Assembly (NCBI RefSeq): GCF_030452765.1
Contig: NZ_JAKDLO010000015.1
Span: 1 to 41,290 of the forward strand
DNA from: Intrasporangium sp.
Lineage (GTDB): Bacteria > Actinomycetota > Actinomycetes > Actinomycetales > Dermatophilaceae
Reading direction: 5' to 3'
Length of the DNA: 41,290 nt
The position numbers and the translations under genes are program-made. A model generated the notes under the pieces. It saw nothing but the letters and a program-made list of their open reading frames with translations, did no database searches and was not told where the DNA came from. Positions 9,037 through 39,142 of the stretch are shown one piece after another (positions within the stretch are counted from its first letter, which is position 1; each line of letters starts with the position of its first letter).

Positions 9037-9057
9037 GGCGACTCCCTTCACGTAGAC

Positions 9058-9085
9058 ACGATACCCCCCTATGGTATTAAGTCAA
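9058..9085 (-). promoter_or_regulatory. Promoter of the copper ATPase with CsoR-type operator in its spacer
   Basis: Read on the minus strand, TTGACT (9085-9080) and TATCGT (9063-9058) form -35 and -10 boxes with a 16-bp spacer. The spacer holds most of the inverted repeat ATACC-N7-GGTAT (9061-9077) with a G-tract, matching the general outline of CsoR/CstR operators. Repressor binding here would block RNA polymerase. The ATPase start lies about 22 bases beyond the -10 box. Confidence 0.65.
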
Positions 9086-9287
9086 TACTCAAGCGTGACC
9101 TAATCCCCCCGACCCGGCTTGGTAGCCCGAAGCACGGACTGAAGAGGCAGGTGATGAAGATGAAGCAGGAATGTCCCCACTACCCCTTAACGTCGTCTCG
9201 TGGTCGAGCCATCTCGGCCGCAGTCCGCTGAGTGCGACCCATCCGGGCTCCAGAGCGCCCAGCCCCACACGAAGGAGAGCTGAACCA

Positions 9288-9968
9288 ATGGACGTCATCC
9301 TGATCGCCGGCCTCTGGCTGGACTCCTCCGCATGGGACGCAGTGGTGCCCGAGCTGGAGAAGCTCGGGCACAGCGGCATACCCGTGGCCCTTCCCGGCCA
9401 GGGGGACGGCAGCGGCACCGCCACCCTGGACGACCAGGTCGCGGCGGTCTTGGCTGCCGTCGACGCAGCCGAGAACGCGCTGGTGGTCGGCCACTCGGCC
9501 GCCGCCACGCTCGCCTGGCTCGCCGCGGACCGTCGGCCCGACCGGGTGCGAGGACTGGCCCTCATCGGCGGGTTCCCGTCCGCGGAGGGGGAAGCCTACG
9601 CGGACTTCTTCCCGACCACCGACGGCGCCATGTCCTTTCCGGGCTGGGAGCCGTTCGAAGGCCCGGACTCGGCCGACCTCGACGATGCGATGAAGGCAGC
9701 CGTGGCAGCCAACGCGATCGCTGTCCCCGAAGGAGTCGCGAAGGGGATCGTCCACTACACCGACGACCGTCGATATGCCGTCCCCGTCGTCCTCGTGTGC
9801 CCGGAGTTCTCGCCGGAGCAGGCGAAGGAGTGGCTGGAGGCCGGCGAGCTGCCGGAGCTGGCGGAGGCCCAGCACCTCGAGTACGTCGACATCGACTCGG
9901 GCCACTGGCCGATGTTCACCAAGCCGGCTGAGCTCGCCCGCCTCCTCGCCGCCGCCGCCACCTCCTGA
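9288..9968 (+). CDS. Alpha/beta hydrolase
   Basis: This 226-residue protein has an alpha/beta hydrolase layout: an opening strand with DVILIAGLWLDSSAW, the nucleophile elbow VVGHSAAATLAW (serine in G-H-S-A-A), and a C-terminal histidine in DIDSGHWPMFTKP, the usual GHxPM position. A candidate acid lies in the strand before it. ATG 9288 follows AAGGAG, and the homology begins exactly there, so the longer upstream frame from 9171 is not used. It is divergent from the copper ATPase. Its stop codon falls inside the first unit of a 21-bp tandem repeat. The small size suggests an esterase-type enzyme; the substrate is unknown. Confidence 0.8.
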   Translation: MDVILIAGLWLDSSAWDAVVPELEKLGHSGIPVALPGQGDGSGTATLDDQVAAVLAAVDAAENALVVGHSAAATLAWLAADRRPDRVRGLALIGGFPSAEGEAYADFFPTTDGAMSFPGWEPFEGPDSADLDDAMKAAVAANAIAVPEGVAKGIVHYTDDRRYAVPVVLVCPEFSPEQAKEWLEAGELPELAEAQHLEYVDIDSGHWPMFTKPAELARLLAAAATS

Positions 9969-10067
9969 TCGAGAGTGCAGCACTTCTCATCGAGAGTGCA
10001 CTACTCCTGATCGAGCGTGCAGCACTTCTTATCGACAGTGCGCCACTCCGGATCGAGAGTGCAACAC
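9963..10067. repeat. Five-copy 21-bp tandem repeat after the hydrolase gene
   Basis: Five directly adjacent imperfect copies of 21 bp start at 9963, 9984, 10005, 10026 and 10047. The core is ATCGAGAGTGCA followed by a variable CAC/TAC. Units 1, 3 and 5 begin TCC, units 2 and 4 begin TTC, so the array also reads as a 42-bp alternating pattern. Several units carry GTGCAGCAC or GTGCAC, which are self-complementary. The first unit includes the hydrolase TGA stop. There are no spacers between units, so it is not a CRISPR array. Confidence 0.9.
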
Positions 10068-10157
10068 CGCGCATCTCGGCCCTGTCACACCAGAGCGACT
10101 GGTCCCTGATGTCGACCCAGTCCCGCCACCGGGTCCGAGGACACCGGAGCCAGGGCA

Positions 10158-10179
10158 CCCGGCCATCCTGGTGGCCGGG
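10158..10179. terminator. Perfect inverted repeat between hydrolase and MMPL genes
   Basis: CCCGGCCA (10158-10165), a six-base loop and TGGCCGGG (10172-10179) form a perfect 8-bp GC-rich stem. It lies about 190 bp after the hydrolase stop and 115 bp before the MMPL start. It may be a U-tract-less terminator of the hydrolase transcript, or an operator for the exporter operon. The rest of the 326-bp gap holds only the 21-bp repeat array. Confidence 0.45.
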
Positions 10180-10294
10180 CAGGAGTCATCCGAACGGATG
10201 ATGTCCGGCGGTGGGAAGGGACACCACGTCTTCCTAACGTGAGACACGGCACCCGGACGGTGCCAGTCGCGACGAGAAGAAGGCACACCAACCC

Positions 10295-12406
10295 ATGACC
10301 ACCCAGCTCCACCAACACGATTCGTCAGGCGTAGCGCGCGCTCTCACAAGGAGGCGTGGCGCCTGGCTGACCCTCATCATCGGGATCCTCCTCGCCTTGG
10401 GGGTCATCGGCGGCCTTCAAGGCATGAATGCGTCAGCCCGCAGCGACGCCGCGCCTGCCTCGTCGGAGTCGACCCAGGCGGCTCGGCTCGCCGAGCAGTT
10501 CCCGGACAGCGACCTGCAACCGGTTCTCGTCGTCGCATCCCGCCCGGATGGGCATGCCCTGACCGACCAGGACCTGGCCCAGCTGCAGGACCTGGCGCCG
10601 CAGCTCGAGATGGTCTCGGGCCACCGCCCGTCGCCACCCAACACATCCACTGACCAGCGAGCCGCAGTCATCCAGGTGCCGGTCCGGGTCGCTGAGGACA
10701 ACACCGCCAACGCCACCACAGTCGACCACCTACGTGACACCATCGCCGCCCACACCCCACCGGGGCTGACGCTCCAGGTCACCGGCGGCGTCGCCTTCGG
10801 GGCTGACATCGCATCGGCGTTCGACGGCGCCAACGTCACTCTGCTGCTCGTGACGATCGGCATCGTCGCACTCCTGCTCATCCTGACCTACCGCTCGCCC
10901 GTCCTGTTCCTCGTGCCCCTCGCCGTCGTCGGGCTCGCGGACCAGGTCGCCGCAGTCGTGACCCAGGCCCTCGGTCAGGCCTTCGACCTGCAGTTCGACG
11001 CCGGAGTCGTCAGCGTTCTCGTCTTCGGCGCGGGCACGAACTACGCCCTGCTGCTCATCTCCCGCTACCGGGAGCGGCTGCACCACACTCAGGACTACCG
11101 CGAGGCCCTCGCCCACGCATGGCGGGCGACCGTGCCCGCAGTCGTCGCGAGCAACCTCACCGTCGTGCTCGCCCTGCTCACCCTGGTCCTCGCCGTCATC
11201 CCCGGCACCCGAGGCCTCGGCATCGCGGGCGCTGCCGGCCTGCTCATCGCTGCCGTAGCCGTCCTCACGCTGCTGCCCGCCGGGCTCTCGCTCGCCGGCC
11301 GCCGCGTCTTCTGGCCCTTCGTGCCCAAGCCGCAGACCGCCCCGCATCCGGCCCACAACACCTGGGGACGCATTGCCCGAGCCGTCACCCGACGACCTGC
11401 GGCCGTCCTGCTCGCCTCGACCGTGTTGCTCGGCGCCATGGCCGCTGGGCTCCTGGGCACGAGCGTCGGCCTGACCCAGGCAGACCGCTTCCGCGTCCCG
11501 TCCGAGTCCGCCGCCGGCCTCGAGGTCCTCGCCGAGCACTTCCCCGCGGGCGCAGCAGCCCCCATCACCGTCATCGCCGCGGCCGATCGGATCGACGAGG
11601 TCCAGGCCGCCGTCGAGCAGGCGAACGGTGTCGATTCGGTCCACCCCGGCGGGACGACCAGCGGACCAGACCCACTGGCGAGGCTCGTCGTCACGGGCGA
11701 CCCCGCCCCGGGCACGGATGCCGCTTCCGACCTCGTCCGTGACGTCCGAGCTGCGGCCCATGCGGTCCCAGACGCCCATGCGGTCGTCGGCGGCCAGCCC
11801 GCCGTCGACCTCGATGCCCGGGACGGCAACCACCGCGACCTGCTCGTCGTCGCGCCCCTCATCCTCGCCATCGCCGCTCTCGTGCTGTTCGGGCTGCTCC
11901 GCTCGGTCGTCGCACCGCTCGTGCTGCTCGTGACGAACCTCGCGAGCGCCCTCGCTGCCATCGGCGCCGGGTCCTGGCTGGCTCGCCGGCTCTTCGACGC
12001 ACCCGCCCTCGACCTGCAGGTCCCGCTCTTCGCGTTCCTGTTCCTCGTCGCGCTGGGCATCGACTACACGATCTTCCTCGTGCACCGAGCCCGCGCGGAG
12101 ACGACGGAGCACGGCACGCGGGAGGGTATCGTCCGGGCCGTCGCCAGCACCGGTGGCGTCATCACGAGCGCGGGCATCGTCCTCGCGGCTGTCTTCGCCG
12201 CCCTGGGCGTGCTGCCGCTCGTCACCCTGGGCCAGCTCGGCCTGATCGTCGGCCTCGGGGTCCTGGTCGACACGCTGCTGGTGCGCACCGTCGTCGTGCC
12301 GGCCCTGTTCGCCCTGCTCGGTGACCGCATCTGGTGGCCCTCCCGGCCAGCGGCCCGCCGCCACGACACTCCCGCGCGGGAGCTCGCTGTCACCGTCGCC
12401 GAGTAG
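10295..12406 (+). CDS. MMPL family RND-type exporter
   Basis: This 703-residue inner-membrane transporter has the MMPL plan: one membrane helix (near residues 25-45), an external domain, a bundle of helices, a second external domain and a second bundle. RND/MMPL pumps export lipids, drugs or siderophores using the proton gradient. The paired proton-relay positions are visible. The second half has LGIDYTIFLVHR (Asp590-Tyr591), while the first half has GAGTNYALLLISR, with Asn249 where many MMPLs have Asp. I recall the Asn form as common in one actinobacterial branch, so it is not necessarily a defect. The start is ATG 10295. The kinase gene begins 12 bp after its stop, so the two-component pair very probably controls it. 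The cargo is unknown. Confidence 0.9.
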   Translation: MTTQLHQHDSSGVARALTRRRGAWLTLIIGILLALGVIGGLQGMNASARSDAAPASSESTQAARLAEQFPDSDLQPVLVVASRPDGHALTDQDLAQLQDLAPQLEMVSGHRPSPPNTSTDQRAAVIQVPVRVAEDNTANATTVDHLRDTIAAHTPPGLTLQVTGGVAFGADIASAFDGANVTLLLVTIGIVALLLILTYRSPVLFLVPLAVVGLADQVAAVVTQALGQAFDLQFDAGVVSVLVFGAGTNYALLLISRYRERLHHTQDYREALAHAWRATVPAVVASNLTVVLALLTLVLAVIPGTRGLGIAGAAGLLIAAVAVLTLLPAGLSLAGRRVFWPFVPKPQTAPHPAHNTWGRIARAVTRRPAAVLLASTVLLGAMAAGLLGTSVGLTQADRFRVPSESAAGLEVLAEHFPAGAAAPITVIAAADRIDEVQAAVEQANGVDSVHPGGTTSGPDPLARLVVTGDPAPGTDAASDLVRDVRAAAHAVPDAHAVVGGQPAVDLDARDGNHRDLLVVAPLILAIAALVLFGLLRSVVAPLVLLVTNLASALAAIGAGSWLARRLFDAPALDLQVPLFAFLFLVALGIDYTIFLVHRARAETTEHGTREGIVRAVASTGGVITSAGIVLAAVFAALGVLPLVTLGQLGLIVGLGVLVDTLLVRTVVVPALFALLGDRIWWPSRPAARRHDTPARELAVTVAE

Positions 12407-12417
12407 CGTCGGTGGGC

Positions 12418-13776
12418 ATGAGGACGAGGCCCGTGGGGGGGGCGCCCCCGGGGGGGCCCCCGGGGCCCGCGCGCGCGGGGGGGGCCCGGCGCCGCCGCCC
12501 CGCCCCCGCCCCCCCGGCCCCCCCCCGGGGCGCGCCGGCGCGGGTCGCCCCGATCGTGCGCACGCTGACGATCGTCGAGCACGTCGTGCTGGTCGCCCTC
12601 GTCGGCGTCAGTGTGGTGCGTGGCCTCCTCGACGAGGCCAACCCGTGGTTGCTCGCCACCGGCGCGCTCGCACTCCTGCTCTGGTATGTCGCTGGGCTGC
12701 CTCCCAGCCACCGCCTCCTTCGCAGCCGGGTCCCGAGCCGCAGACGGGTCCCGAGCCGCTGGTGGCTGGCCGGGCTCGTCGTGGTCTGGTTGCTCCTGCT
12801 GCTCGTCACGAGCGAGGCGGTCTGGGTCGCCTTCTCGCTGTGGCTCCTCATCGGTCGCTTCCTGCCGCTGCGCCCGGCTCTGCTCGGTGCGGCCGTCGTC
12901 CTCGCCGCGGTCCTGCTCTCGCCCCTGCGCGACAGCGCCGTCCTCGGCGTCGCCGGCGTCATCGGCCCAGTGATCGGCGCCCTCGTCGCCCTGGCCATCT
13001 CTCGCGGCCAGCAACAGCTGGTTCGCGACGCGATCGAGCGCCAGCGCCTCGTCGAGTCGCTCGTCCATGCCCAGCGGGAGATGGCAGCCATGCACGAAGA
13101 GCTCGCGGCGGAGCAGCGCAACTCCGGTGTCCTCGCTGAGCGCACCCGGCTGTCCCGCGACATCCACGACACGCTCGCCCAGGGCTTCTCGTCGATCCTG
13201 CTGCTCGCCCGTGCCGGGCGTCCCCACGACGACCCGCAGCGCCTTCACGACCTGCTTGCCCAGATCGAGTCGAGCGCTGCGAGCAACCTCGTCGAGGCCC
13301 GTCGCGTCGTCGGTGCGCTCGCGCCCGAGGACCTCGAGAGCCAAGGCCTCCCCGCCGCCCTGCGAAGGCAGCTCGAGGCACTCACCGAGGTGAGCGGCAT
13401 ACAGGCGCAGCTGCACGTCGACGGCGACCTCACGGCACTGCCCACGGCAACCGAGGTGGCCCTGCTGCGCACCGCCCAAGGTGCTCTCGCGAACGTGCGC
13501 CAACACGCCGGTGCAACGCGCGCCGTCATCACCCTGACCGACGCGGGAGACGCGGTGCGCCTCGACATCGTCGACGACGGCGCGGGGTTCGATGCCGACG
13601 GTTGGGCGGCGGCACGGGCTCCCGCCTCGCCGGCCGCCGGCGGCTACGGGCTGCGCGCCATGCGCTCGCGCCTGCGCGAGCTCGGCGGTGAGCTGCACGT
13701 CGAGTCGCAGCCCGGCGAGGGGACGGCGCTGTCCGCCCAGCTCCCCTTGGCGCTCAGCGGTGAGGAGGAGCCGTGA
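12418..13776 (+). CDS. Sensor histidine kinase (NarL-type partner), N-terminus doubtful
   Basis: The 452-residue product has five or so membrane helices (about 45-210), a coiled linker, a HisKA_3 dimerisation box RLSRDIHDTLAQGF with the phospho-acceptor His250, and an HATPase domain with ALANVRQHAG (N box), VDDGAGF and GYGLRAMRSR. It would phosphorylate the regulator encoded next, whose GTG overlaps its TGA by 4 bp. ATG 12418 begins 12 bp after the MMPL stop. Residues about 6-42 come from a 110-base stretch of pure G/C and read as Gly/Pro/Ala/Arg only. The true N-terminal sequence, and perhaps the frame upstream, is therefore uncertain. Confidence 0.85.
   Translation: MRTRPVGGAPPGGPPGPARAGGARRRRPAPAPPAPPRGAPARVAPIVRTLTIVEHVVLVALVGVSVVRGLLDEANPWLLATGALALLLWYVAGLPPSHRLLRSRVPSRRRVPSRWWLAGLVVVWLLLLLVTSEAVWVAFSLWLLIGRFLPLRPALLGAAVVLAAVLLSPLRDSAVLGVAGVIGPVIGALVALAISRGQQQLVRDAIERQRLVESLVHAQREMAAMHEELAAEQRNSGVLAERTRLSRDIHDTLAQGFSSILLLARAGRPHDDPQRLHDLLAQIESSAASNLVEARRVVGALAPEDLESQGLPAALRRQLEALTEVSGIQAQLHVDGDLTALPTATEVALLRTAQGALANVRQHAGATRAVITLTDAGDAVRLDIVDDGAGFDADGWAAARAPASPAAGGYGLRAMRSRLRELGGELHVESQPGEGTALSAQLPLALSGEEEP
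12435..12544. other. 110-bp uninterrupted G/C tract, probable sequence error
   Basis: No A or T occurs from 12435 to 12544. Long runs of G and C alternate (for example ten consecutive C near 12520), unlike any other place in the window. The tract lies at the 5' end of the kinase gene, and normal codon usage resumes abruptly afterwards. A low-quality consensus over a hard-to-sequence hairpin is the simplest explanation. Confidence 0.75.
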
Positions 13777-29062: not shown

Positions 29063-29941
29063 TCAGCCGGCCAGGAGGCCTCGGACATACGTCGCGCTGG
29101 TGCTCACGTCTGCGGCCGGGCCGGCGGCGCCCTCCGGTGGCCCCACCAGGATCGTGTCCTGCTCGAGGGTGTACCACCCGGAGTAGCCGTGGCCCTCGAG
29201 GTGCCCCACGATCGCGGCGATGTCGACATCGCCCTCACCGAGCGGCCGGTACATGCCCGCCCGGACCGCCTCGGTGTAGGTGAGTCGACCCTCCTGGACC
29301 TTGCGAGCGAACGCACCGTCGACGTCCTTGAGGTGGGTGTGTGCGATCCGGTCGGGCACTTCTCGGGTGAGCTCGGCGGGGTCGGTGCCGCCGATGAGCA
29401 GGTGTCCGGTGTCGAGGCACAGCGCGACCGAGGAGCCGTCGAGCACCCGGAGCACGTCGCCGGTGCTCTCGACCATCGTCCCGACGTGCGGGTGGAGCAC
29501 CACCGTGATGTCGTGTTGCGCTGCCTCGTCCGTGACGCGGTCGAGGTTGGCGAGCAGCACGGCCCAGTCACCGTCGTCGAGCAGCGGCCGCGAGTCGTAC
29601 CCGGTCAGCCCGGTGTCGGCCGACACGACCATGACCCCGGCGTGCGCCGCCACGAACCCGGGCAGCAGCCGCCGCAGCTCGACCAGGGGGTCGACCTCGC
29701 GGCGGTGCAGGACGAACGGGGTGAAACCTCCGACGGCCTGCAGGTGGTGCTCGGCCAGGACGGCGGCGAGCCGGTCGGGCTCGCCGGGCAGGAACCCGTC
29801 GGGTCCGAGCTCGGTCGCGGCGAGGCCGAGCTCCTGCATCTCGGCCAGGACCCGGCCGGCGGGCAGCTGGTAACCCCAGCCGGGGACCTCGCAGACGCCC
29901 CAGCTGATCGGGGCTGCGGCGATGCGGTTGCCGGTGCTCAT
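29063..29941 (-). CDS. IolE-like sugar phosphate isomerase/epimerase (inosose dehydratase family)
   Basis: The 292-residue TIM-barrel protein matches the xylose isomerase-like family that includes IolE (2-keto-myo-inositol dehydratase). Typical text is APISWGVCEVPGWGYQLPAG, TELGPDGFLPGEPD, the metal-site segments VVLHPHVGTMVE and LCLDTGHLLIGG, HTHLKDVDGAFARKV, and GYSGWYTLEQDTIL. IolE removes water from 2-inosose to give the diketone that IolD hydrolyses, and IolD is three genes upstream. ATG 29941 overlaps the preceding dehydrogenase stop by 4 bp. It is the last gene of the operon. Epimerase activity on a related cyclitol is the alternative. Confidence 0.8.
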   Translation of the reverse strand: MSTGNRIAAAPISWGVCEVPGWGYQLPAGRVLAEMQELGLAATELGPDGFLPGEPDRLAAVLAEHHLQAVGGFTPFVLHRREVDPLVELRRLLPGFVAAHAGVMVVSADTGLTGYDSRPLLDDGDWAVLLANLDRVTDEAAQHDITVVLHPHVGTMVESTGDVLRVLDGSSVALCLDTGHLLIGGTDPAELTREVPDRIAHTHLKDVDGAFARKVQEGRLTYTEAVRAGMYRPLGEGDVDIAAIVGHLEGHGYSGWYTLEQDTILVGPPEGAAGPAADVSTSATYVRGLLAG

Positions 29942-30897
29942 GGGGTGCTCCTCGGTGGGTTGCGGTGATGGTGGGTCCAGTCGGGGTTCGCGACGGCTGC
30001 GGGCGGTTGCCCGGACAGGACGGCGGTGATGCCCCGGGCCGCGTCGGCGTAGGTCAGGGCGGTGGCCCGCCGGGTCATGCCCATCAGGTGCGGGGTCAGG
30101 ACGACATCCGGATGGTCGAACAGCGGATGGTGCTCGGGGGGCTCAGGATCGTAGACATCGAGCCCGACCCCGCCCAGCCGCCCGGCCCGCAGCGCGTCAT
30201 ACGTCGCGTCGAGGTCCACCAGCCCGCCGCGGCCGCAGTTGACGAGGATCGCGCCACGCTTGGCCCGCGCCAGGCGCGCCTCGTCGACCAGATGGCGGTT
30301 CTCCGGGGTCAGGGGCAGGTGCAGGCTGATGACGTCGCTGCGGGTTAACACCTGCTCGAGGGTGGCCGGGACGGCTGGCGGGGTGACCGGCGCGAACGGG
30401 TCGTGCGCCAGCACCCGCATCCCGAAGGCGTCGGCGAGCCTGGCCGTGGCGCAACCGATGCGGCCGTAGCCGAGGATCCCCATCGTCGCCCCGGACAGGT
30501 CGCCGAGTGCCAGAGCGGAGCGCTCGGGCCACCGCCCCTCCCGGACGAGGTCGGTGGTGACCCGGAGCCGCTTGACGAGGCACAGGGCCAGGGCCATGGC
30601 TCCCTCGGCGACCGCACCGGTACCTGATCCGGGGGTGATGACGACCGGGATGCCCCGCGCGGTCGCTGCGGGCACGTCGACCCGGTCGGTGCCGACGCCG
30701 GTGCGGGCGAGCACCCGCAACCGGGGCATCCGGCTCAGCAGGTCGGAGTCGACCAGCACGTCCGCTCGCACGAGCGCACCGACCGCGGCGGCCAGCTCGT
30801 CCGGGCCGGGATCGGCGACCACGCGCGCACCCTCGGGCAGGTAGGGCTCGACCAGGTCGGGTTCCACCTGCCCGAGCGCGACCACGACGACGGTCAT
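29938..30897 (-). CDS. D-2-hydroxyacid dehydrogenase (D-isomer family)
   Basis: This 319-residue NAD(P)-dependent dehydrogenase has the family's Rossmann site (GATMGILGYGRIGCATA) and catalytic residues: Arg in ILVNCGRGGLVDL, Glu in VYDPEPPEHHP and His in VVLTPHLMGMTRR. It interconverts 2-keto acids and D-2-hydroxyacids, and hydroxypyruvate or glyoxylate reductases share this form. The usual inositol pathway has no such step. ATG 30897 overlaps the aldolase stop, and its own stop overlaps the IolE-like ATG, both by 4 bp. It could act on an aldolase product such as tartronate semialdehyde or hydroxypyruvate, which is inference. Confidence 0.88.
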   Translation of the reverse strand: MTVVVVALGQVEPDLVEPYLPEGARVVADPGPDELAAAVGALVRADVLVDSDLLSRMPRLRVLARTGVGTDRVDVPAATARGIPVVITPGSGTGAVAEGAMALALCLVKRLRVTTDLVREGRWPERSALALGDLSGATMGILGYGRIGCATARLADAFGMRVLAHDPFAPVTPPAVPATLEQVLTRSDVISLHLPLTPENRHLVDEARLARAKRGAILVNCGRGGLVDLDATYDALRAGRLGGVGLDVYDPEPPEHHPLFDHPDVVLTPHLMGMTRRATALTYADAARGITAVLSGQPPAAVANPDWTHHHRNPPRSTP

Positions 30898-31688
30898 GAC
30901 GGGCCCGCGGTGGCCTGGGCGAGCTCGCGCCGCAGCGCCGTGGCCAAGACCGTCGTGTCCGACCCGATCGCCACGAACCGCCATCCCTGCTCTGCCCACC
31001 GGTGGGCGGACTCCCCGTCTGCCACGAGCAGCCCCACCGCGGTCCCGTGCTGGCGGCCGGCGGCGAGGACGGCCGCGGTCGCCTCGAGGAACACCGGTGC
31101 GCCCACCTGTCCCGGGACACCGAGGGCGTGGCTGAGGTCGCGTGGCCCGACGAAGAGCACGTCGACCCCGTCGAGGGCGGCGATCGTGTCGACCTCCCGG
31201 AGCGCGCCGAGCGTCTCGACCTGGATGACGCCCAGGACCTCCTCGTCGGCCCGGTCCAGGGCGCCGGGGTCGAGCCCGAAACGGCACGCCCGGTTGTACG
31301 TCGCGACGCCGCGCTCGCCTGCCGGCGGGTAGCGCATCGCGCGGACGGCCTGCTCCGCCGTGGCGACCGAGTCGACGCGCGGGAACATCACGCCCGCGGC
31401 GCCTTGGTCGAGGATGCGACCGGCGCGAATGCGTTCGGTCGTCTCGGCGCGGACGACCGTGGGCACCCCGTAGGCCGCGGCGGCCGGGATGGTCGTGCGC
31501 AGCTGCTCCTCCCCACCACCTCCGTGCTCGAGGTCCAGCAGCAGCCAGTCGAGGCCGGCAGCGGCGCAGGCCTCGGCGACGAGGGGCGAGGCTCCTCCCA
31601 CGAAGGTCCCGAAGGTCGTCGCGCCGTCGGCGAGGCGGGCCTTGAGCCGGCCGCGGTCCGTCGGGCTCGGCAGGCCGGTGGGCGTCAT
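30894..31688 (-). CDS. HpcH/HpaI-family class II aldolase
   Basis: This 264-residue metal-dependent aldolase has the family features LLLDLEHGGGGEEQLR, VVRAETTERIRAG (Arg for carboxylate binding), MFPRVDSVATAEQAVRA, VIQVETLGAL (metal Glu) and VDVLFVGPRDLSHALG (metal Asp). Relatives such as GarL, RhmA and HpaI split 2-keto-acids to pyruvate and an aldehyde. In the classical inositol pathway the cleaving enzyme is IolJ, a different family, so this aldolase implies another intermediate. ATG 31688 overlaps the IolD stop by 4 bp. The substrate is unknown. Confidence 0.88.
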   Translation of the reverse strand: MTPTGLPSPTDRGRLKARLADGATTFGTFVGGASPLVAEACAAAGLDWLLLDLEHGGGGEEQLRTTIPAAAAYGVPTVVRAETTERIRAGRILDQGAAGVMFPRVDSVATAEQAVRAMRYPPAGERGVATYNRACRFGLDPGALDRADEEVLGVIQVETLGALREVDTIAALDGVDVLFVGPRDLSHALGVPGQVGAPVFLEATAAVLAAGRQHGTAVGLLVADGESAHRWAEQGWRFVAIGSDTTVLATALRRELAQATAGPS

Positions 31689-33646
31689 CCGTACCACCGC
31701 TGTGCCTCGAGGCCCTTCTCGTACACCACCCGCGCCTGTTGGACGCTGTCGATCTCGCTGACCTGCGCCGGGGCGACGTCCCACCAGCACCCGGCCGAGG
31801 GCAGGTCGGCGTGCGGGATGACCGGCACGACGATGACGACGGGTCCCCGGTGGTCGCGGGTGTCGGCGAGTGCGGTGCGGACCTCGGCCGCGGTCGTGGC
31901 CCGGATGGACCGGGCGCCCAGCCCTGCCGCCACCGCGACCAGGTCGACCTGGAGGTAGTCGCCCGAGAGCCGCGCCGGGCCGTCGGCCGACAGATCGAGA
32001 CCGTCGGGTCGGTAGCGGAACTCGTTGCCGAACTCCCGCCCCACGGTGCCCATCTGGAGGCGGTGGATCACCTGGTAGCCGTGGTTCTCGGGGATGACGA
32101 TCGTGACCGCGGCTGCCTCGGCACCGGCCGTGACGAGCTCGGTCGGGGCCATCAGGAAGGTGCCGTCACCGATGAACGAGGTGACCCGATGGGCCGGGTC
32201 GGGGTCGGCGAGACGGACCCCGACCGCGGCGGGGATCTCGTAGCCCATGCAGGAGAACCCGAACTCCAGGTGGCAGCGGCGCCCGCCGGTGGCATCCCAC
32301 ACCTTCAGCAGGTCCCCGGGTGGCCCACCGGCTGCCGCGATGATCGTGTCGCCGGGCCGGGTGTGCTCCTGCAGGAGACCGATCAGCTGGCCCTGCGTGA
32401 GGACCGCGTCCGTGTCGGGGATGACATCGGTGCTCGTGCGACGCAGCTCGGCGATCTCGACGGGCTGGTCGGCATCGAGCGCCGCGGCACGCACCGGCGC
32501 CCAGCGGGCCTTGGCCTCGCGGGTGCGTGTCTGCCATGCGTGGGGTGCCTGGTGGCCCGCGAGTGCGTCGGCCAGCCCCTCGAGAGCGAGCCGGGCGTCG
32601 CCCTGGATGCTCGTGGCCCCGAGCCGGTCCCCGTCGCGTGGGTCGACGTTGATGCTGGCGAACCGCACGTCGGGGTTGCCGAAGAGCGAGTGCGATCCGG
32701 TGGCGAAGTCGGTCAGCCGCGAGCCGACGGTGAGGACGAGGTCGGCGTCACGCGCGAGGTCGTTGGTGGCGGGGTTCCCCTCGAGCCCGATCCCGCCCAG
32801 CTGCCACCAGGCGGGCTGCTGGACCGCACCCTTGCCCGCGAACGTCTCCGAAACGGGTATGCCGACCGCCTCGGCCAGCCGCTCGAGCGCGGCCGTGGCC
32901 CCGGAGTAGAGCACCCCGCCTCCGGCGACGATCATCGGCTGCCGAGCGGCCCGCACGAGGTCCGCGACCGCCGTGACCTCGACCGGGTCGGGGACAGGAC
33001 GGCGGATCGTCCAGTCGCGCGGCTCGAAGAAGGCGGCGGGGAAGTCGTGGGCGTGGGACTGCACGTCCTGGGGCAGGCTGATGACGGCGGCGCCCGTGCC
33101 CACCGGGTCGGTGAGGACGCGCATCGCGGCGGGCAGGGCCGTGAGCAGCTGCTCGGGACGGGTGATCCGGTCGAAGAAGCGGGCCACCGGGCGGAAGGCG
33201 TCGTTGACGCTGGCGTCCGCCTCGATGGGGTGCTGCAGTTGCTGCAGCACGGGGCCCTGCCGGCGGGTGGCGTAGGCGTCGCCGGGCAGCAGCAGCACGG
33301 GCAGCCGGTTGACGGTGGCCAGCCCGGCACCGGTGACCATGTTCAGGGCGCCGGGGCCGATCGAGGCCGTGACGGCCAGCGTTGCGTGCCGGAGGCTGGC
33401 CTTGGCGTACGCGGACGCGATGTGGACGAGGTTCTGCTCGTTGCGGCCCTGCACGAAGGGCATCTGCTCGCTCAGCTGGTCCAGGGCTTGCCCGAGGCCG
33501 GCCACGTTCCCGTGCCCGAAGATGCCGAGGGTCGCCGGGACGAGGCGGCGGCGTTGCCCGTCGGCGAGGCTGAACTGGCGAGCCAGGTACAGCGTCAGGG
33601 CCTGGGCGGTGGTCAGGCGGATCGTTGCGTGTGACTGGGTGGTCAT
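31685..33646 (-). CDS. iolD: IolD-like ThDP-dependent cyclohexanedione acylhydrolase
   Basis: This 653-residue thiamine-diphosphate enzyme matches 3D-(3,5/4)-trihydroxycyclohexane-1,2-dione hydrolase, which opens the inositol ring to 5-deoxyglucuronate. It has the ThDP-activating Glu in PFVQGRNEQNLVHIASAYAK, the characteristic TLAVTASIGPGALNMVTGA and NRLPVLLLPGDAYATRR, the middle domain PMIVAGGGVLYSGA, and the cofactor motif GDGTFLMAPTELVTAG...IPENHGYQV, with GDG and NH. ATG 33646 follows AAGGGAG, 31 bp after the aldehyde dehydrogenase stop. It is the strongest indicator that the operon degrades a cyclitol. The exact ring substrate could be other than inositol. Confidence 0.9.
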   Translation of the reverse strand: MTTQSHATIRLTTAQALTLYLARQFSLADGQRRRLVPATLGIFGHGNVAGLGQALDQLSEQMPFVQGRNEQNLVHIASAYAKASLRHATLAVTASIGPGALNMVTGAGLATVNRLPVLLLPGDAYATRRQGPVLQQLQHPIEADASVNDAFRPVARFFDRITRPEQLLTALPAAMRVLTDPVGTGAAVISLPQDVQSHAHDFPAAFFEPRDWTIRRPVPDPVEVTAVADLVRAARQPMIVAGGGVLYSGATAALERLAEAVGIPVSETFAGKGAVQQPAWWQLGGIGLEGNPATNDLARDADLVLTVGSRLTDFATGSHSLFGNPDVRFASINVDPRDGDRLGATSIQGDARLALEGLADALAGHQAPHAWQTRTREAKARWAPVRAAALDADQPVEIAELRRTSTDVIPDTDAVLTQGQLIGLLQEHTRPGDTIIAAAGGPPGDLLKVWDATGGRRCHLEFGFSCMGYEIPAAVGVRLADPDPAHRVTSFIGDGTFLMAPTELVTAGAEAAAVTIVIPENHGYQVIHRLQMGTVGREFGNEFRYRPDGLDLSADGPARLSGDYLQVDLVAVAAGLGARSIRATTAAEVRTALADTRDHRGPVVIVVPVIPHADLPSAGCWWDVAPAQVSEIDSVQQARVVYEKGLEAQRWYG

Positions 33647-33677
33647 GGCTGTCTCCCTTCGATGAAGCAGTGCGTGG

Positions 33678-35126
33678 TCACCAGGGCCGGCCATGGAGGA
33701 TGACCGTCTTGGCCTCGGTCATCTCCTCCACTGCGGACCGGAAGCCCTCCTTGCCGATCCCGGAGGCCTTCAGCCCCCCGTACGGCATGAGGTCCGCTCG
33801 CCACAGGGGCGTCCAGTTGATATGGATCACCCCGGCGTCGATGTCGCGCACGGCGCGCACGGCCCCCGACACGTCTGACGTGAAGATCCCGGCACCGAGG
33901 CCGTAGCCGGTGCCGTTGGCCTGCGCGACGGCAGCGGTCCAGTCCGCGGCGGTGGAGACCGCGACCGCTGGGCCGAAGAGCTCCTCCTGTGCCAGAGGCG
34001 ACCGGGGGTCGACTCCGGCGATGACGGCCGGGGACACCGTCGCACCGTCGAGGGCGCCCCCGGTGCGGATCGAGGCGCCCTCTTCGGTGGCTGCCTGGAT
34101 CGCGGCGTGGACCCGGCTGGCCTCGCTCGCGGTGATGAGGGTCCCCATCTGGCTCGTCGCCGCGCCGGGGTCGCCGACCTGGATGGCCGCCACCTTCGGC
34201 ACGAGCGCGTCGAGGAAGTCTGCGCTGATGCGCGGGTGGGTGATGACCCGCTGGACCGAGATGCACACCTGTCCGGCGTTGACGTACCCACCGAGGGCGA
34301 CCGCCGCCGCGGCCGCCTCGATGTCGGCATCCGGCAGCACGACGACCGGACAGGAGGCGCCGAGCTCGAGAGAGAGCTTCTTCACCCCTGCCAGGGACGC
34401 GATCCGCCGGCCCGTCGCCGTGGACCCGGTGAACGAGATCTTGCGCACCCGCGGGTCCGACACGAGCGCGTCCCCGAGAGCGGCGCCCGGGCCGGTCAGG
34501 ACGCCCAGGACGCCCTCGGGCAGGCCTGCGTCGAGGAACACCTGCGCGAGCAGGAGCGCGGTGAGCGGGGTGGTGCGGGCCGGTTTGAGGACCACGGAGT
34601 TGCCTGCCGCCAGGGCCGGAGCCACCTTGTGCAGGACCAGGAGCGAGGGGTAGTTGAACGGCGTGATCGCGACCACGACCCCACACGGCTGCCGAACGGT
34701 GAAGCCGAGCTTGTCCCGGCCGGTGCCACGGTTCGCGTCCAGCGGGAGCGTGTCGCCGTAGAGCTGGGTGCCCTCGTACCCGGCGAGCCGGATCATGTCG
34801 CCGGCCCGGCCGACCTCCCCGCGCGCCTCGGTGATGGTCTTGCCGTTCTCGGCGCTGAGCACCTGCGCGATGTCCTCCGCGCGCCCCTCGACGAGGGCGG
34901 CCGCCCGGTTCATCACGTCCATACGCGCGAACGCCGGGGTCTCACGCCATACCGTGGCGCCTCGTTCGGCGGCCCGCCGGGCCGCCTCGACGTCGGGCGC
35001 GCCCGCGACGGCGACCTCGCCCACGACGTGGCCGTCCCAAGGAGAGCGGACCGGCTCGCTGGCTCCGGAGGCGGCCGGGGCCCACTCTCCTGCGATGAGC
35101 AGTCGGTCCGGGATCGTGGTGTTCAC
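33678..35126 (-). CDS. NAD(P)-dependent aldehyde dehydrogenase
   Basis: This 482-residue protein has the standard aldehyde dehydrogenase plan: cofactor segment VVVAITPFNYPSLLVLHKV, GNSVVLKPARTTPLTA, KISFTGSTATGRRIA, the general base in KKLSLELGASCP and the nucleophile Cys in NAGQVCISVQRV. The general-base Glu is present, as in hydrolytic enzymes, whereas CoA-acylating IolA lacks it. So it is more likely a lactaldehyde or semialdehyde-type dehydrogenase than IolA. GTG 35126 overlaps the MocA gene stop as GTGA and gives the usual length; an ATG 12 bases upstream is the alternative. It probably oxidises an aldehyde released by the aldolase. Confidence 0.9.
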   Translation of the reverse strand: MNTTIPDRLLIAGEWAPAASGASEPVRSPWDGHVVGEVAVAGAPDVEAARRAAERGATVWRETPAFARMDVMNRAAALVEGRAEDIAQVLSAENGKTITEARGEVGRAGDMIRLAGYEGTQLYGDTLPLDANRGTGRDKLGFTVRQPCGVVVAITPFNYPSLLVLHKVAPALAAGNSVVLKPARTTPLTALLLAQVFLDAGLPEGVLGVLTGPGAALGDALVSDPRVRKISFTGSTATGRRIASLAGVKKLSLELGASCPVVVLPDADIEAAAAAVALGGYVNAGQVCISVQRVITHPRISADFLDALVPKVAAIQVGDPGAATSQMGTLITASEASRVHAAIQAATEEGASIRTGGALDGATVSPAVIAGVDPRSPLAQEELFGPAVAVSTAADWTAAVAQANGTGYGLGAGIFTSDVSGAVRAVRDIDAGVIHINWTPLWRADLMPYGGLKASGIGKEGFRSAVEEMTEAKTVILHGRPW

Positions 35127-36277
35127 AGCTTCACCCATCCTTCCGAGGTGATGGATTCCATGGCGGCTTCGGCGACCGTCGCGGCGCGCACCGCGTCGGC
35201 GAGGGTGGCGCCGGTCGGCACGCCGCTGACAATGGACTCGAGCAGCCGCTTGGCCTCGATGACCTTCAGGTCGTCGTAGCTCATCGCGATACCGGCGTCC
35301 GGCTGGAAGACGCCGAACTCCGCGAGCCCCGGACCGACGAGGCGCGTGGACCACATGGCGGCCTGGTAGTCCTGGTCGAGACACACCCGCAGCTCACCCA
35401 TCCGGCGGAAGTCCCAGGCGATCGCACCGGTCCGCCCGTGGATGACGAACCCGTACGCGTTCTGCTCCCCGACCGAGGCCCGGCTCGCCTCGAGCACCCC
35501 GCGGGCGCCCGACTCGAACGCCACGAGCATCGAGACGTAGTCCTCGTTCTCCACCGTCTCGAGCGGTCCGCCCGCGCCACGCGAGAAATGTGATGCGGCG
35601 CCGACGCTGGCGGGTCGCTGCGTGATGAACGTGCAGTCCTGGGCCATCACCCGGACGATGGGGCCCACGAGGTACTCGGCGAGGTCGGCACCGTGTGAGC
35701 CGAGGTCCCCGATGACGCCACTGCCGGACAGGGCGCGAGTGAACCGCCACGTGTGCGCGCCCTGCGGGTGGGCGGCATAGTCACCGAGCATCTGGAAGCG
35801 CGCATGGGTCACCTCGCCGATCCGGCCGGCCCGCACCAGCTCGCGGGCGTGCTCGACGGCGGGGGCGTTGCGATAGTTGAACCCGACGGCCGAGTGCACC
35901 CCGGCCCGTGCCGCGGCCTCGGCGATGGCCCGGGTCTCGGCCAGACCGCGCCCGGCCGGCTTCTCCACCCACAGGTGCTTGCCCGCCTGCGCGGCGGCGA
36001 CGGCGACCTCCGCATGGATGAAGTTGGGTCCGGTGACGCTGACCACATCGACGGCGTCGCTGGTCACGAGTTCTCGCCAGTCGGCGGTCGTCGCGGCGAA
36101 ACCGTACGAGTCCTTCGCCAGCTCGAGCCGTGAGTCGGGCGCGTTGTCAGCGACCATCGCCAGCTCGGGGACGACGGGAAGATCGGGGTAGTGGTGGCGG
36201 ACGCGGGTCAAAGCGCGGGCATGGGCCTGACCCATCCACCCGAAGCCGACCACCCCGAGACGGACATGTTGTGTCAC
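35123..36277 (-). CDS. Gfo/Idh/MocA-family oxidoreductase
   Basis: This 384-residue protein is the first gene of the operon. It has the Rossmann start LGVVGFGWMGQAHARAL, VVSVTGPNFIHAEVAVAAA and the family motif LWVEKPAGRG (Glu-Lys-Pro), then VGFNYRNAPAVEHA and GVIGDLGSHGADLAEY, the catalytic His-containing segment. Members oxidise sugars and inositols at ring hydroxyls with NAD(P); IolG, IolX and IolW belong here. It would therefore make the ketone acted on by the IolE-like protein. The start is GTG 36277, behind AAAGGGA. The gene is divergent from the hydrolase gene at 36.5 kb. Confidence 0.9.
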   Translation of the reverse strand: MTQHVRLGVVGFGWMGQAHARALTRVRHHYPDLPVVPELAMVADNAPDSRLELAKDSYGFAATTADWRELVTSDAVDVVSVTGPNFIHAEVAVAAAQAGKHLWVEKPAGRGLAETRAIAEAAARAGVHSAVGFNYRNAPAVEHARELVRAGRIGEVTHARFQMLGDYAAHPQGAHTWRFTRALSGSGVIGDLGSHGADLAEYLVGPIVRVMAQDCTFITQRPASVGAASHFSRGAGGPLETVENEDYVSMLVAFESGARGVLEASRASVGEQNAYGFVIHGRTGAIAWDFRRMGELRVCLDQDYQAAMWSTRLVGPGLAEFGVFQPDAGIAMSYDDLKVIEAKRLLESIVSGVPTGATLADAVRAATVAEAAMESITSEGWVKL

Positions 36278-36512
36278 GGCAGGTCCCTTTCCGATGCAAC
36301 AAGGCGTGGTGTGTGGAGTCGTCGCGCCGGTGCCTTGCGATCACGCGTCGATGCGACTACCTCGACGATATGGTCCCGCGGGCCTCGCCGACCCCCGCGA
36401 ATCCCCTCAGAAAGACCTCAACCCCGGGTCAGCGGCATCGACCGTGCTCGGCAGCGTTCCCGTTCCTGCGGATGTCCACAGAATCGGTGCTACTCGTGGG
36501 TACATTGAAAGT
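36278..36512. promoter_or_regulatory. Divergent promoter region of the cyclitol operon and hydrolase gene
   Basis: This 235-bp gap serves the leftward operon and the rightward hydrolase. Near its middle CGTCGA (36346-36351) and TCGACG (36362-36367) are inverted half-sites with a 10-bp spacer, a possible regulator site. Just before the hydrolase ATG, TACATT (36501-36506) is a good -10 hexamer. No regulator gene for the operon lies nearby. Confidence 0.4.
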
Positions 36513-37451
36513 ATGACGACCGTTGACATCCCAGTCGCGGCGCTCGCATCCCGGTGGAAGGGCAAGAGCCGCATCGTGGATCTGCGCGGCCCCGTCCATT
36601 GGGTCGACTTCGGGGCGCCCGAGCGGGACGACCGGGCGCCCGTCGTGCTCGTGCACGGGTTGGGCGGGTCGCACCTCGACTGGGTGCGCATCGCCCCTGC
36701 GCTCGCCGACCACCGCCACGTCGTTGCCGTCGACCTGCCCGGGTTCGGACTGACCCCTGCGGCCGGGCGCCACACCACGGTCCGCGCCAACGCACGCCTC
36801 CTCGGCCGTTTCGTCGACGAGGTCCTGCGTCAGCCCGCCGTCCTCGTCGGCAACTCGATGGGCGGGATGATCGCGCTCCTGCTCGCGGCCGACCGTCCCG
36901 GGCTCGCCGCGGGGCTCTGCCTGCTCGACCCCTCCCTGCCGCTGGACCGTCGCCACCAGGACCCGCTCGTCGCGGCCGAGTTCGCGCTGTTCACGGTGCC
37001 GTTCCTCAGCCGGGCCTACCTCGAGCGCAACCGGCGCCGTCTGACCGCCGAGGAACAGGTGCTCCGCACCCTCGATCTCTGCTTCGCCGATGACGCCCGG
37101 ATCGACCCCGACGTGCTCGAGGCCGACGTCGCACTGGCCGAGTACCGGGCCGCGATCCCCGGCACCGACGTCGAGTTCCTCGGCGCAGCGCGTTCACTGC
37201 TGCGCGTGCTGGCCCGCAGCAGGAGTTATGCCGCTCACATCCGTTCGATCGACCGCCCGGTGCTGCTCGTGCACGGTGAGCAGGACCGCCTGGTGCCCTT
37301 CTCTGCAGCGGAGGCGACCGCGGCGGCGAACCCGCGCTGGGAGACACTCTTCCTGCCCGGGGTCGGCCACGTCCCACACCTCGAGGTCCCGGGGGTCGTC
37401 CTTGACCGACTGCTGCCCTGGCTCGATCGGCTGCGCCGCGCCTCGCAATAA
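36513..37451 (+). CDS. Alpha/beta hydrolase, probably leaderless transcript
   Basis: This 312-residue protein has the oxyanion-hole motif VVLVHGLGGSHLDW, the strand-and-loop VAVDLPGFGLT, the nucleophile elbow LVGNSMGGMIAL (Ser in G-N-S-M-G), a late acid in LLVHGEQDRLVP and the His in LPGVGHVPHLEVP. It is a cytosolic esterase or epoxide/dioxygenase-product hydrolase of unknown substrate. ATG 36513 has no Shine-Dalgarno sequence, but the -10-like TACATT ends six bases before it, so transcription probably starts at the A of ATG. It is divergent from the cyclitol operon; a shared role is not demonstrated. Confidence 0.88.
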   Translation: MTTVDIPVAALASRWKGKSRIVDLRGPVHWVDFGAPERDDRAPVVLVHGLGGSHLDWVRIAPALADHRHVVAVDLPGFGLTPAAGRHTTVRANARLLGRFVDEVLRQPAVLVGNSMGGMIALLLAADRPGLAAGLCLLDPSLPLDRRHQDPLVAAEFALFTVPFLSRAYLERNRRRLTAEEQVLRTLDLCFADDARIDPDVLEADVALAEYRAAIPGTDVEFLGAARSLLRVLARSRSYAAHIRSIDRPVLLVHGEQDRLVPFSAAEATAAANPRWETLFLPGVGHVPHLEVPGVVLDRLLPWLDRLRRASQ

Positions 37452-37585
37452 TGCAAACCGGTCGCTCCGGGCCGGGCTCTGGACGTAGCGTGGACTGTCA
37501 GTCCCGCGTCGTCGTGGTGTCGTCGCCGCCCCCGTCCCGCTCGGATCCTCGACTCCCACCGTCTCCGAAGAAAGCGCCTCCAGCC

Positions 37586-39142
37586 GTGGCCCACAGAGCA
37601 CCGACCCCGACCGGCCTCCCCGAGAAGATCGACGCCGCCGTCCTCAAGATCGCCGGTGTCGTCGTCCTCGGCGCGATCATGTCGATCCTCGACATCACCG
37701 TGGTCAACGTCGCGCTGCCGACGTTCCAGACCGTCTTCGCCACCGACCCGGCCCACCCGGTCGAGTACTCGACCGTGGCGTGGACCGTCACGGCCTACAC
37801 CCTCGCGCTCGCGACCGTCATCCCGCTGACCGGCTGGTCCGCGGACCGGTTCGGCACGAAACGGCTCTACATCATGGCCCTGCTGCTGTTCACCGCGGGG
37901 TCGGCGCTCTGCGCCACGGCCAACACGATCGGCGTGCTCATCATCTTCCGGGTCATCCAGGGCCTCGGCGGCGGCATGCTCATGCCTCTGGGCATGACGA
38001 TCATGACGAAGGCCGCAGGTCCGCACCGGATGGGCCGGCTCATGGCGATCCTCGGTATCCCGATGCTGCTCGGCCCGATCTTCGGCCCGATCCTCGGCGG
38101 CTGGCTGATCGACCACTACTCGTGGCACTGGATCTTCCTCGTCAACGTCCCGATCGGCATCGTCGCGGTGGTCTACGCGTTGATCGCGCTGCCCAAGGAC
38201 AAGCCTGAACCCTCGGAGTCCTTCGACGTCGTCGGCATGCTGCTCATGTCGCCGGGTCTCGCCCTGTTCCTCTACGGCGTCAGCTCGATCCCCGGTGAAG
38301 GCACCATCGCGGCGGCCAAGGTCCTCCTGCCGGGGATCGTCGGCCTGGTCATGCTCGGGGCGTTCGTCGTGTACAGCTTCAGGCCGAAGCACCCGCTGCT
38401 CGACCTGCGACTGTTCGCCAACCGCAACCTCGCGGTCTCGATCATCACCATGTTCCTCTTCGGTGCGGCCTTCTTCGGAGGCCTGCTGCTGGTGCCGACC
38501 TACTACCAGGTCGTGCGCGGTGAGCTGCCGGTCACCGCCGGCTGGCTCATGGCGCCCCAAGGGGTCGGCGCCATGATCACGATGCCGATCGCTGGAGCCT
38601 TGATCGACAAGTTCCCGGTCGGGCGGATCGTGCCGTTCGGGGTGCTGCTCATCACGGGTGGGATGTTCGCCCTGACGCAGGTCACGGCCGACACGCCCTA
38701 CTGGGGGTACCTCATCCCGGTCCTGTTCGTCATGGGCCTGGGCATGGGCGCGACGATGATGCCCGTCATGACCTCGGCGCTCAAGACGCTCACCGCGCAC
38801 CAGGTTGCCCGCGGGTCCACGCTGATCAACATCACGCAACAGATCGCGAGCTCGATCGGTGTCGCCGTCATCTCGGTCGTCTACACGAACTACCTCAAGG
38901 GCGAGCCGCTCGCCGTGCCGGCCATCGCCGCCGCGCACGACCCGGCCATCGCCGAGAAGCTTGGCCCAGCCGGCATCGCCGCCGGTCTCTCCCAAGCCGC
39001 CGAGGCCTTCGCCAGCACGTTCCTCGTCGCTGCCATCCTCGTCGCGTGCACGCTCGTCCCGGCCTTGTTCCTGCCGCGCAAGCACGAGGAGTCCCGGCTC
39101 CTCGAGGACGAGACTTCGGCGCCGCCCGCGATGCTGCACTGA
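37586..39142 (+). CDS. DHA2-family MFS multidrug exporter (EmrB-like)
   Basis: This 518-residue protein has about 14 membrane helices and the DHA2 signatures: VVLGAIMSILDITVVNVALP in helix 1, WTVTAYTLALATVIPLTGWS, RVIQGLGGGMLMPLGMTIMT (motif C-like region) and WHWIFLVNVPIG. Proton-coupled drug or metabolite efflux is the likely role. I chose GTG 37586, where the homology begins. An ATG at 37451, inside the end of the hydrolase gene, would add 45 Ser/Pro-rich residues that do not look like protein. The start remains uncertain. A 27-bp near-palindrome right at its stop is a terminator. Confidence 0.85.
   Translation: MAHRAPTPTGLPEKIDAAVLKIAGVVVLGAIMSILDITVVNVALPTFQTVFATDPAHPVEYSTVAWTVTAYTLALATVIPLTGWSADRFGTKRLYIMALLLFTAGSALCATANTIGVLIIFRVIQGLGGGMLMPLGMTIMTKAAGPHRMGRLMAILGIPMLLGPIFGPILGGWLIDHYSWHWIFLVNVPIGIVAVVYALIALPKDKPEPSESFDVVGMLLMSPGLALFLYGVSSIPGEGTIAAAKVLLPGIVGLVMLGAFVVYSFRPKHPLLDLRLFANRNLAVSIITMFLFGAAFFGGLLLVPTYYQVVRGELPVTAGWLMAPQGVGAMITMPIAGALIDKFPVGRIVPFGVLLITGGMFALTQVTADTPYWGYLIPVLFVMGLGMGATMMPVMTSALKTLTAHQVARGSTLINITQQIASSIGVAVISVVYTNYLKGEPLAVPAIAAAHDPAIAEKLGPAGIAAGLSQAAEAFASTFLVAAILVACTLVPALFLPRKHEESRLLEDETSAPPAMLH

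Follow-up and report, generated by a model that had tools for sequence, protein, structure and literature searches.

A six-gene operon of Intrasporangium sp. as a candidate kinase-free oxidative branch of inositol catabolism

The window analysed here is a 41,290-nucleotide stretch of Intrasporangium sp. (contig NZ_JAKDLO010000015.1 of assembly GCF_030452765.1), which corresponds to contig C164 of a 4.6-Mb draft genome (97% complete). Six open genes are located on the minus strand between positions 29063 and 36277, all coordinates being exact. The first one encodes a proposed cyclitol dehydrogenase of the GFO/IDH/MocA family (MocA, 35123–36277, 384 amino acids, aa), followed by genes for a non-acylating aldehyde dehydrogenase (ALDH, 33678–35126, 482 aa), a thiamine diphosphate-dependent ring-opening hydrolase of the IolD type (31685–33646, 653 aa), a class II oxoacid aldolase of the HpcH/HpaI family (30894–31688, 264 aa), a D-2-hydroxyacid dehydrogenase (2-HADH, 29938–30897, 319 aa) and an IolE-like TIM-barrel inosose dehydratase (29063–29941, 292 aa). 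Overlaps of 4 bp are found at the MocA/ALDH, IolD/aldolase, aldolase/2-HADH and 2-HADH/IolE junctions, and 31 bp lie between the ALDH and IolD genes. This arrangement, including the four overlaps, had been described in an original prediction made from the DNA alone and was confirmed by reading the starts and stops; the six enzyme families named there agree with Pfam assignments well above the family cut-offs. Among the matches listed, IolD is the only operon protein that exceeds a curated NCBIfam cut-off. Judged from the sequences, it is about as likely as not that these six genes, one per step, make up a complete oxidative pathway that breaks down a cyclitol of the inositol type without a kinase.

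Loci related to the operon were collected from GTDB genomes by a search with the aldolase, which gave at least 64 loci; all counts on related loci rest on the matches listed. A locus was regarded as linked when it contained an IolD sharing over 55% identity with that of the window, and aldolase loci without such an IolD were regarded as unlinked. The 40 linked loci, found in 38 genomes, comprise 36 of the 64 listed ones, the window, a second operon on contig C3 of the same genome and one locus each from the genomes G377 and G235. Their hosts include Streptomyces, Kineosporia, Pseudonocardia, Humibacillus, Geodermatophilus, Leucobacter and Kocuria, and wherever a lineage is given it belongs to the Actinomycetota. 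The neighbourhood comparison of the aldolase across actinobacteria that had been proposed originally was carried out by searching for stretches of up to 9 kb in which ALDH-IolD-aldolase-2-HADH follow one another on the same strand. This order is kept in 38 of the 40 loci with a span of 5.2 to 6.6 kb, so that the grouping of these genes is more than chance. A 2-HADH gene is present in all 40 loci, an ALDH gene in 39, mocA in 35 and an iolE-like gene in 33, with several loci truncated at the end of a contig. Further neighbours are IolG-type dehydrogenases (22 loci), substrate-binding proteins (SBPs, 18), SDR proteins (18), CoA-acylating methylmalonate-semialdehyde dehydrogenases (MMSDH, 3), tartronate-semialdehyde reductases (TSR, 3) and hydroxypyruvate-isomerase-like proteins (4). 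At four Leucobacter loci (L066, L071, L072 and L077) the MocA and IolE genes are paired apart from the four-gene module, in keeping with a division of labour in which two enzymes would convert the ring and the other four open it and process the open chain. In a sample of 296 genomes of the class, 121 contain an IolD-type match (E ≤ 1e-100), while a window-type IolD (≥64% identity) is found in three only and all other matches are at most 53% identical. From this occurrence, the window-type module appears to be a rare and patchy accessory system, separated by a clear gap from canonical IolD.

The three proteins that would convert the cyclitol ring are related to inositol enzymes to different degrees. 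IolD reaches 752 bits with the equivalog model TIGR04377 (cut-off 715); it is 46.5% identical to the canonical IolD of the same genome and 60 to 77% identical to the IolD proteins of related operons. The IolE-like protein (PF01261) scores below the IolE cut-off (TIGR04379, 155.3 compared to 290), as do both IolE-like proteins of the canonical cluster of this genome (165 and 159), and the only solved chains retrieved with it at E ≤ 1e-6 are the IolE proteins 9zmu and 3cny. For MocA (PF22725/PF01408), the nearest solved chains include 6a3f, deposited as 'Putative dehydrogenase', which we take to be a levoglucosan dehydrogenase, and, in third place, the scyllo-inositol dehydrogenase 5ya8. The best NCBIfam model for MocA is also levoglucosan dehydrogenase (NF052479), albeit under its cut-off (291 compared to 650). 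This match would fit an operon not devoted to cyclitols at all, in which the ring opened by the IolD-like enzyme is some other cyclic 1,2-dione, such as one derived from a modified sugar. Such a role is most improbable, given the IolD score above cut-off and the IolE structures as closest solved relatives of the IolE-like protein. It is further opposed by an SBP near a related locus, for which rhizopine gave the best model (under cut-off, 179.8 compared to 420) and which has matches in 18 of the 40 loci, and by the presence of IolB within 31 kb of the operon IolD on the same contig (7.8 to 30.5 kb apart) in eight of the 36 genomes reached through related loci. The cyclitol context of the operon is supported by the IolD score, by IolE and scyllo-inositol dehydrogenase among the nearest solved chains and by the SBPs of related loci, whose best model, under cut-off, is that for rhizopine.

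A closer comparison of MocA is possible with Pl-scyllo-IDH (LgdA) of Paracoccus laeviglucosivorans, to which it aligns over residues 7 to 351. The equivalents of K106, Y135, R178, D191 and H195 of that enzyme are retained in all 33 MocA rows, but Y163, E165 and H318 are substituted in 33 of 33. According to PMC5969746, these are inositol-binding or catalytic positions.

The ALDH (PF00171) has lactaldehyde dehydrogenase as its best NCBIfam model (433.5, under the cut-off of 650) and reaches only 264 with the CoA-acylating MMSDH model TIGR01722 (cut-off 448.5). The catalytic Cys is conserved in 36 of 36 aligned rows and the Glu motif reads LELGA in all variants listed (33 of the 36 rows), while an IolA-type row reads ALGGAKNH at this position. 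Judged by the catalytic Cys and Glu and the low MMSDH score, the enzyme is of the hydrolytic, non-acylating type foreseen in the original prediction; an assignment as IolA was rejected on the basis of the TIGR01722 score and the deviating Glu motif. Searches with Pfam and NCBIfam placed none of the operon proteins in the IolB or IolC families or among isomerases, kinases or CoA-acylating dehydrogenases, which is in line with the predicted absence of the isomerase, the kinase, the fructose-bisphosphate-type aldolase and the CoA-acylating dehydrogenase of the classical pathway. The 2-HADH (PF02826, 183.5 bits; PF00389, 65.4 bits) is closest to phosphoglycerate dehydrogenase among the NCBIfam models (236.9, under the cut-off of 454). 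Its nearest solved relative is the glycerate dehydrogenase/glyoxylate reductase 2cuk, followed by phosphoglycerate dehydrogenases. The Arg and His motifs, presumably catalytic, are found in all variants listed (32 of 38 rows). D-specific enzymes use the C2 configuration found in D-gluconate-type acids.

The aldolase belongs clearly to PF03328 (127 bits, cut-off 25), but stays under the NCBIfam cut-offs for HpaI (193.5 < 368.8), GarL (156.8 < 406.75), 2-dehydro-3-deoxyglucarate aldolase (162.4 < 393) and 2-keto-3-deoxy-L-rhamnonate aldolase (RhmA, 143.8 < 441). The metal- and substrate-binding residues of AbHpaI (E46, H47, R72, E151 and D177, as given in PMC8560999) correspond to E54, H55, R80, E158 and D184, which are invariant in 66 of 66 rows. 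The position directly before the metal-binding Asp is occupied by Arg (25), Gln (8) or Leu (7) in the 40 linked aldolases, with R183 in the window, and by Ser (14), Ala (10) or Gly (2) in the 26 unlinked ones. An assignment as plain GarL or HpaI aldolase was rejected, as the protein scores too low for these equivalogs and has a different residue next to the metal ligand. In a maximum likelihood tree of the 66 rows, from which two of the 28 unlinked loci were left out, the 40 linked aldolases, the aldolase of the unlinked locus L063 and a clade of ten unlinked ones form one group with a support of 100/99; the clade of ten has the same support (100/99).

The gene neighbourhoods of these nearest relatives differ from those of the linked aldolases. 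Ten of the 11 nearest unlinked loci, all except L075, encode an enolase-type dehydratase similar to the one at L070 or L063; in the 40 linked loci, tblastn at E ≤ 1e-5 gave no such gene (IlvD-type dehydratases were not profile-searched there). The dehydratase of L070 is glucarate-dehydratase-like (252, cut-off 829) and that of L063 a talarate/galactarate dehydratase (658, cut-off 500). TSR-like genes, recognised by eye, follow the aldolase gene in most of the 11 loci, with scores of 277 for L070 and 358 for L063 (cut-off 341). By this context, the unlinked relatives are likely to act on C6 oxo-aldarates made by dehydration. The oxoacid aldolase of the original prediction, assumed there to be of the pyruvate type, is supported by these aldarate-associated relatives. 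Since the dehydratase is found in ten of 11 unlinked and none of the linked loci, the linked aldolases must have a different source of their 2-oxo acid, which ALDH together with 2-HADH would supply. Locus L063 itself (positions 296–3878, from a Brachybacterium metagenome-assembled genome, MAG) encodes a galactarate dehydratase, a GntR-like protein (by eye), a GarL-type aldolase and a TSR; its aldolase is 57 to 58% identical to that of the window, yet has Ser before the metal-binding Asp.

The same neighbourhoods bear on a pyruvate-forming alternative, in which a deoxy-cyclitol serves as substrate, or water is removed a second time, and the aldolase cuts a 2-oxo-3-deoxy acid to pyruvate and a semialdehyde, as GarL does. 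The enolase-type dehydratases and mostly TSR-like genes beside the nearest unlinked aldolases would agree with this, as would the TSR near three of the 40 linked loci. It is nevertheless rather unlikely, because dehydratases like those of L070 or L063 are missing from all 40 linked loci (with the IlvD type outside the profile search) and no linked aldolase shares the residue next to the metal ligand with an unlinked one. A deoxy-cyclitol may still be the substrate. The original prediction had allowed for either pyruvate or a hydroxy-analogue as the cleavage product. For the oxidative route preferred here, hydroxypyruvate would be the simpler aldolase product, and oxidation of a 2-hydroxy acid the simplest source of the 2-oxo acid, as no second dehydratase was found by searches that did not include an IlvD-type profile. 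Hydroxypyruvate is accepted in vitro by HpcH-family aldolases, 19 of 571 class II aldolases screened having done so (PMC7610986).

From the families described above, the following route can be proposed, its substrates, step order and aldolase products being predictions from sequence. MocA would oxidise the cyclitol to an inosose, which the IolE-like protein would dehydrate to a trihydroxycyclohexanedione. Hydrolytic ring opening by IolD would yield a 5-deoxyhexuronate (5-deoxyglucuronate in the case of the usual inosose), the aldehyde group of which would be oxidised by the non-acylating ALDH to a 5-deoxyaldarate. The 2-HADH would then oxidise C2 to give the 2-oxo acid, and the GarL-like metal-dependent aldolase would split the bond between C3 and C4, releasing hydroxypyruvate and malonate semialdehyde. 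The mass balance of this last step closes (C6H8O7 = C3H4O4 + C3H4O3); a retro-aldol cleavage of 2-oxo-5-deoxyglucarate must give these two products. Malonate semialdehyde would be converted to acetyl-CoA via CoA-acylating dehydrogenases encoded elsewhere, and hydroxypyruvate to glycerate. The oxidative branch would run beside the canonical IolB-IolC branch.

Genes for the latter are indeed present in the same genome, as was revealed by the genome-wide search for canonical genes suggested in the original prediction. Contig C242 encodes a GntR-type regulator (by eye), an IolG-type dehydrogenase (257, cut-off 355), one of the two IolE-like proteins mentioned above (165 < 290), IolC (351, cut-off 300), an aldolase-like protein, IolB (278.5, cut-off 205) and IolD (891, cut-off 715); the second iolE-like gene (159 < 290) lies at the end of the contig. 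The aldolase-like protein has no NCBIfam match over cut-off and is presumably the actinobacterial counterpart of IolJ. Three MMSDH-type CoA-acylating dehydrogenases over cut-off are encoded in the genome, all away from the operon, so that together with the genes on C242 a canonical lower pathway is probably available in the same cell. The second operon of the window type, on contig C3, shares with the window 74% identity for ALDH, 70% for IolD, 63% for the aldolase, 42% for MocA, 60% for 2-HADH and 66% for the IolE-like protein, and carries in addition LacI-like (by eye), SDR and IolG-type genes and more. Since the genome contains a canonical iol cluster as well as another operon of the window type, the operon of the window is an accessory branch and not a replacement for the canonical pathway. 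The unphosphorylated cyclitol route envisaged at the outset thus stands in part: IolD is over its cut-off and kinase and isomerase are not in the operon, but the genome keeps the canonical route. A complete canonical cluster elsewhere, combined with an operon that does not respond to cyclitols, had been named as evidence against that route; the cluster part was found, on C242 and by way of IolB in 37 of 38 carrier genomes.

The second operon copy (L023, positions 1170–13657) is larger than that of the window. Its aldolase groups with Intrasporangium/Humibacillus copies, while the aldolase of the window falls (98/84) among Kineosporia-type copies, in which MocA likewise comes first; since the two group separately, the copies seem to be of different origins. 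Directly downstream of the second copy (L023, 14474–16250), open reading frames resembling transposase genes were seen by eye.

IolB over cut-off was detected in 34 of the 36 genomes reached through related loci. One of the two exceptions is the genome of L063, which has no such operon at that locus and no IolD match; the other one is G067, where an IolB fragment lies at positions 3868–4122 of a 4143-base contig, beside IolC. Adding the genome of the window, G377 and G235, the number of carriers with IolB over cut-off comes to 37 of 38. For the frequency of IolB outside the carriers, the nearest proxy is the IolD-type match in 121 of the 296 class genomes. A replacement of the canonical pathway by the operon was rejected in view of IolB in 37 of the 38 carriers and the canonical cluster of the own genome. 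Two carriers have a window-type protein as their sole IolD match, namely G377 (98% complete, E ≤ 1e-100) and the MAG G078 (E ≤ 1e-150), and in both IolB, IolC and a canonical-type aldolase are present; each of the other carriers checked has two or more IolD matches. In the 1.4-Mb genome of G377, the genes IolE-IolC-aldolase-IolB and the window-type module are found on different contigs (L130 and L129), and one IolD is apparently shared between the two branches. The presence of a sole, window-type IolD beside IolB and IolC in G377 and G078 is a hint that this enzyme probably makes ordinary 5-deoxyglucuronate.

These genomes, together with the high frequency of IolB among carriers, would also be compatible with plain redundancy, an extra upper pathway feeding IolB and IolC with ALDH, 2-HADH and the aldolase treating side products or another sugar acid. 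This is very unlikely, as the ALDH (39), aldolase (40) and 2-HADH (40) genes are kept in the 40 loci more often than MocA (35) and IolE-like (33) genes, a difference to which truncation contributes, and as the linked aldolase differs from its unlinked relatives. A further possibility concerns the stereochemistry of the substrate. Pl-scyllo-IDH is reported to bind myo-inositol with the 4'-OH placed at its catalytic Lys, which would point to L-epi-2-inosose as the product, and to reduce this inosose as well (PMC5969746). By oxidising a different carbon or a different inositol, MocA might give an epimeric inosose, leading to an epimeric diketone and to a 5-deoxyhexuronate unusable by IolB; the IolE-like protein and IolD of the operon would be dedicated to that isomer, and the oxidative branch would bypass a stereochemical block. 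The pattern of five retained and three substituted residues in all MocA rows fits such a shift, and a second gene set suggests another substrate, as the canonical cluster already has an IolE-like protein, IolD and IolB. This variant is still unlikely, if worth keeping in mind, since the sole IolD of G377 beside IolB and IolC suggests ordinary 5-deoxyglucuronate.

Several observations weigh against the oxidative route as drawn above, among them the L-epi-2-inosose product suggested for Pl-scyllo-IDH. None of the 38 carriers lacks IolB (37 have it over cut-off, and the last one, G067, has the fragment at the contig end); as the module was not found alone in any of them, it may not be independent of IolB, and the single-IolD genomes speak just as much for an operon that adds to the canonical branch. 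A 2-HADH oxidising an aldarate would be unusual. Considering that a glycerate dehydrogenase/glyoxylate reductase is its closest match among solved structures, the enzyme may reduce hydroxypyruvate instead, and the C2 oxidation would then be left without an enzyme. The rare TSR and hydroxypyruvate-isomerase-like neighbours (the latter scoring 114 bits compared to 353) fit an outcome of pyruvate and tartronate semialdehyde as well. In the tree, the linked aldolases are joined with L063 only weakly (83/54) and, owing to L063, form one side of a branch in only 8% of the bootstrap trees; the role of the residue preceding the metal-binding Asp is proposed from the alignment, and its pattern partly reflects shared ancestry. 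The aldolase gene of L057 is separate from the other module genes, and L064 is without ALDH, the best ALDHs of that genome being 38% identical. The operon of the window itself contains neither a transporter nor a regulator gene. On balance, the chance of a second, phosphate-free lower branch of inositol catabolism in scattered actinobacteria, parallel to the canonical one and including the first physiological hydroxypyruvate-releasing HpcH/HpaI aldolase, is put at slightly less than even.

With the canonical pathway (IolG-IolE-IolD-IolB-IolC-IolJ-IolA), the operon has the upper half in common, i.e. a MocA-family dehydrogenase, an IolE-like protein and an IolD over cut-off, as well as malonate semialdehyde as proposed product. 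In contrast to it, IolB, IolC, IolJ and IolA are missing from the operon and a non-acylating ALDH, a 2-HADH and an HpcH/HpaI aldolase are encoded, so that the predicted C3 product is hydroxypyruvate instead of dihydroxyacetone phosphate and the kinase step is absent. The aldolase is close to those of aldarate clusters, and a C6 oxo-aldarate substrate is proposed as in the glucarate/galactarate pathway (dehydratase, GarL, GarR). Different from that pathway are the lack of an enolase-type dehydratase in all 40 loci, the presence of Arg, Gln or Leu instead of Ala, Ser or Gly before the metal-binding Asp and the proposed entry through a ring-opened cyclitol via ALDH. The Thermotoga-type inositol route likewise departs from the canonical lower pathway. 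It proceeds via 5-keto-gluconate with another ring-opening hydrolase and an epimerase, and is not known to involve IolD or an HpcH aldolase.

The oxidative lower half is apparently undescribed: no description of such an inositol route was found in the literature searched, whose coverage excluded most subscription journals and bioRxiv. The accessible part of PMC9430895 counts iolB, iolC, iolD and iolE and mentions no such variant; the part of PMC9603128 available contains nothing on such a route. If the proposal is correct, inositol catabolism has a kinase-less oxidative branch leading to hydroxypyruvate, a precursor of serine and glycerate, with extra reducing equivalents, and surveys counting iolB, iolC, iolD and iolE would miss the distinction between the branches. 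To our knowledge, hydroxypyruvate has been described with such aldolases as an in vitro donor only. The operon would thus provide a natural role for it as an aldolase product, and new aldolases for the synthesis of 3,4-dihydroxy-2-oxo acids.

Downstream of the operon a subtilase-like gene (by eye) is located. On the other flank, a divergent hydrolase, an EmrB-type efflux pump and a flavoprotein reductase are encoded; the pump gene (DHA2 efflux MFS, 37451–39142), which adjoins the divergent neighbour, is over its subfamily cut-off (440, cut-off 230). A search in relatives for the genes flanking the operon in adjacent positions yielded no useful result, the hydrolase being found in one and the subtilase in two of 18 at the E cut-offs applied. 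Near LacI-like regulators in the Humibacillus copies, a recurrent gene without family assignment was noticed (L049, 2820–4001; L050, 2843–4099), whose product is phytanoyl-CoA dioxygenase-like by eye. In the 5' region of the operon, an imperfect 11-nt inverted repeat is present at positions 36377–36399.

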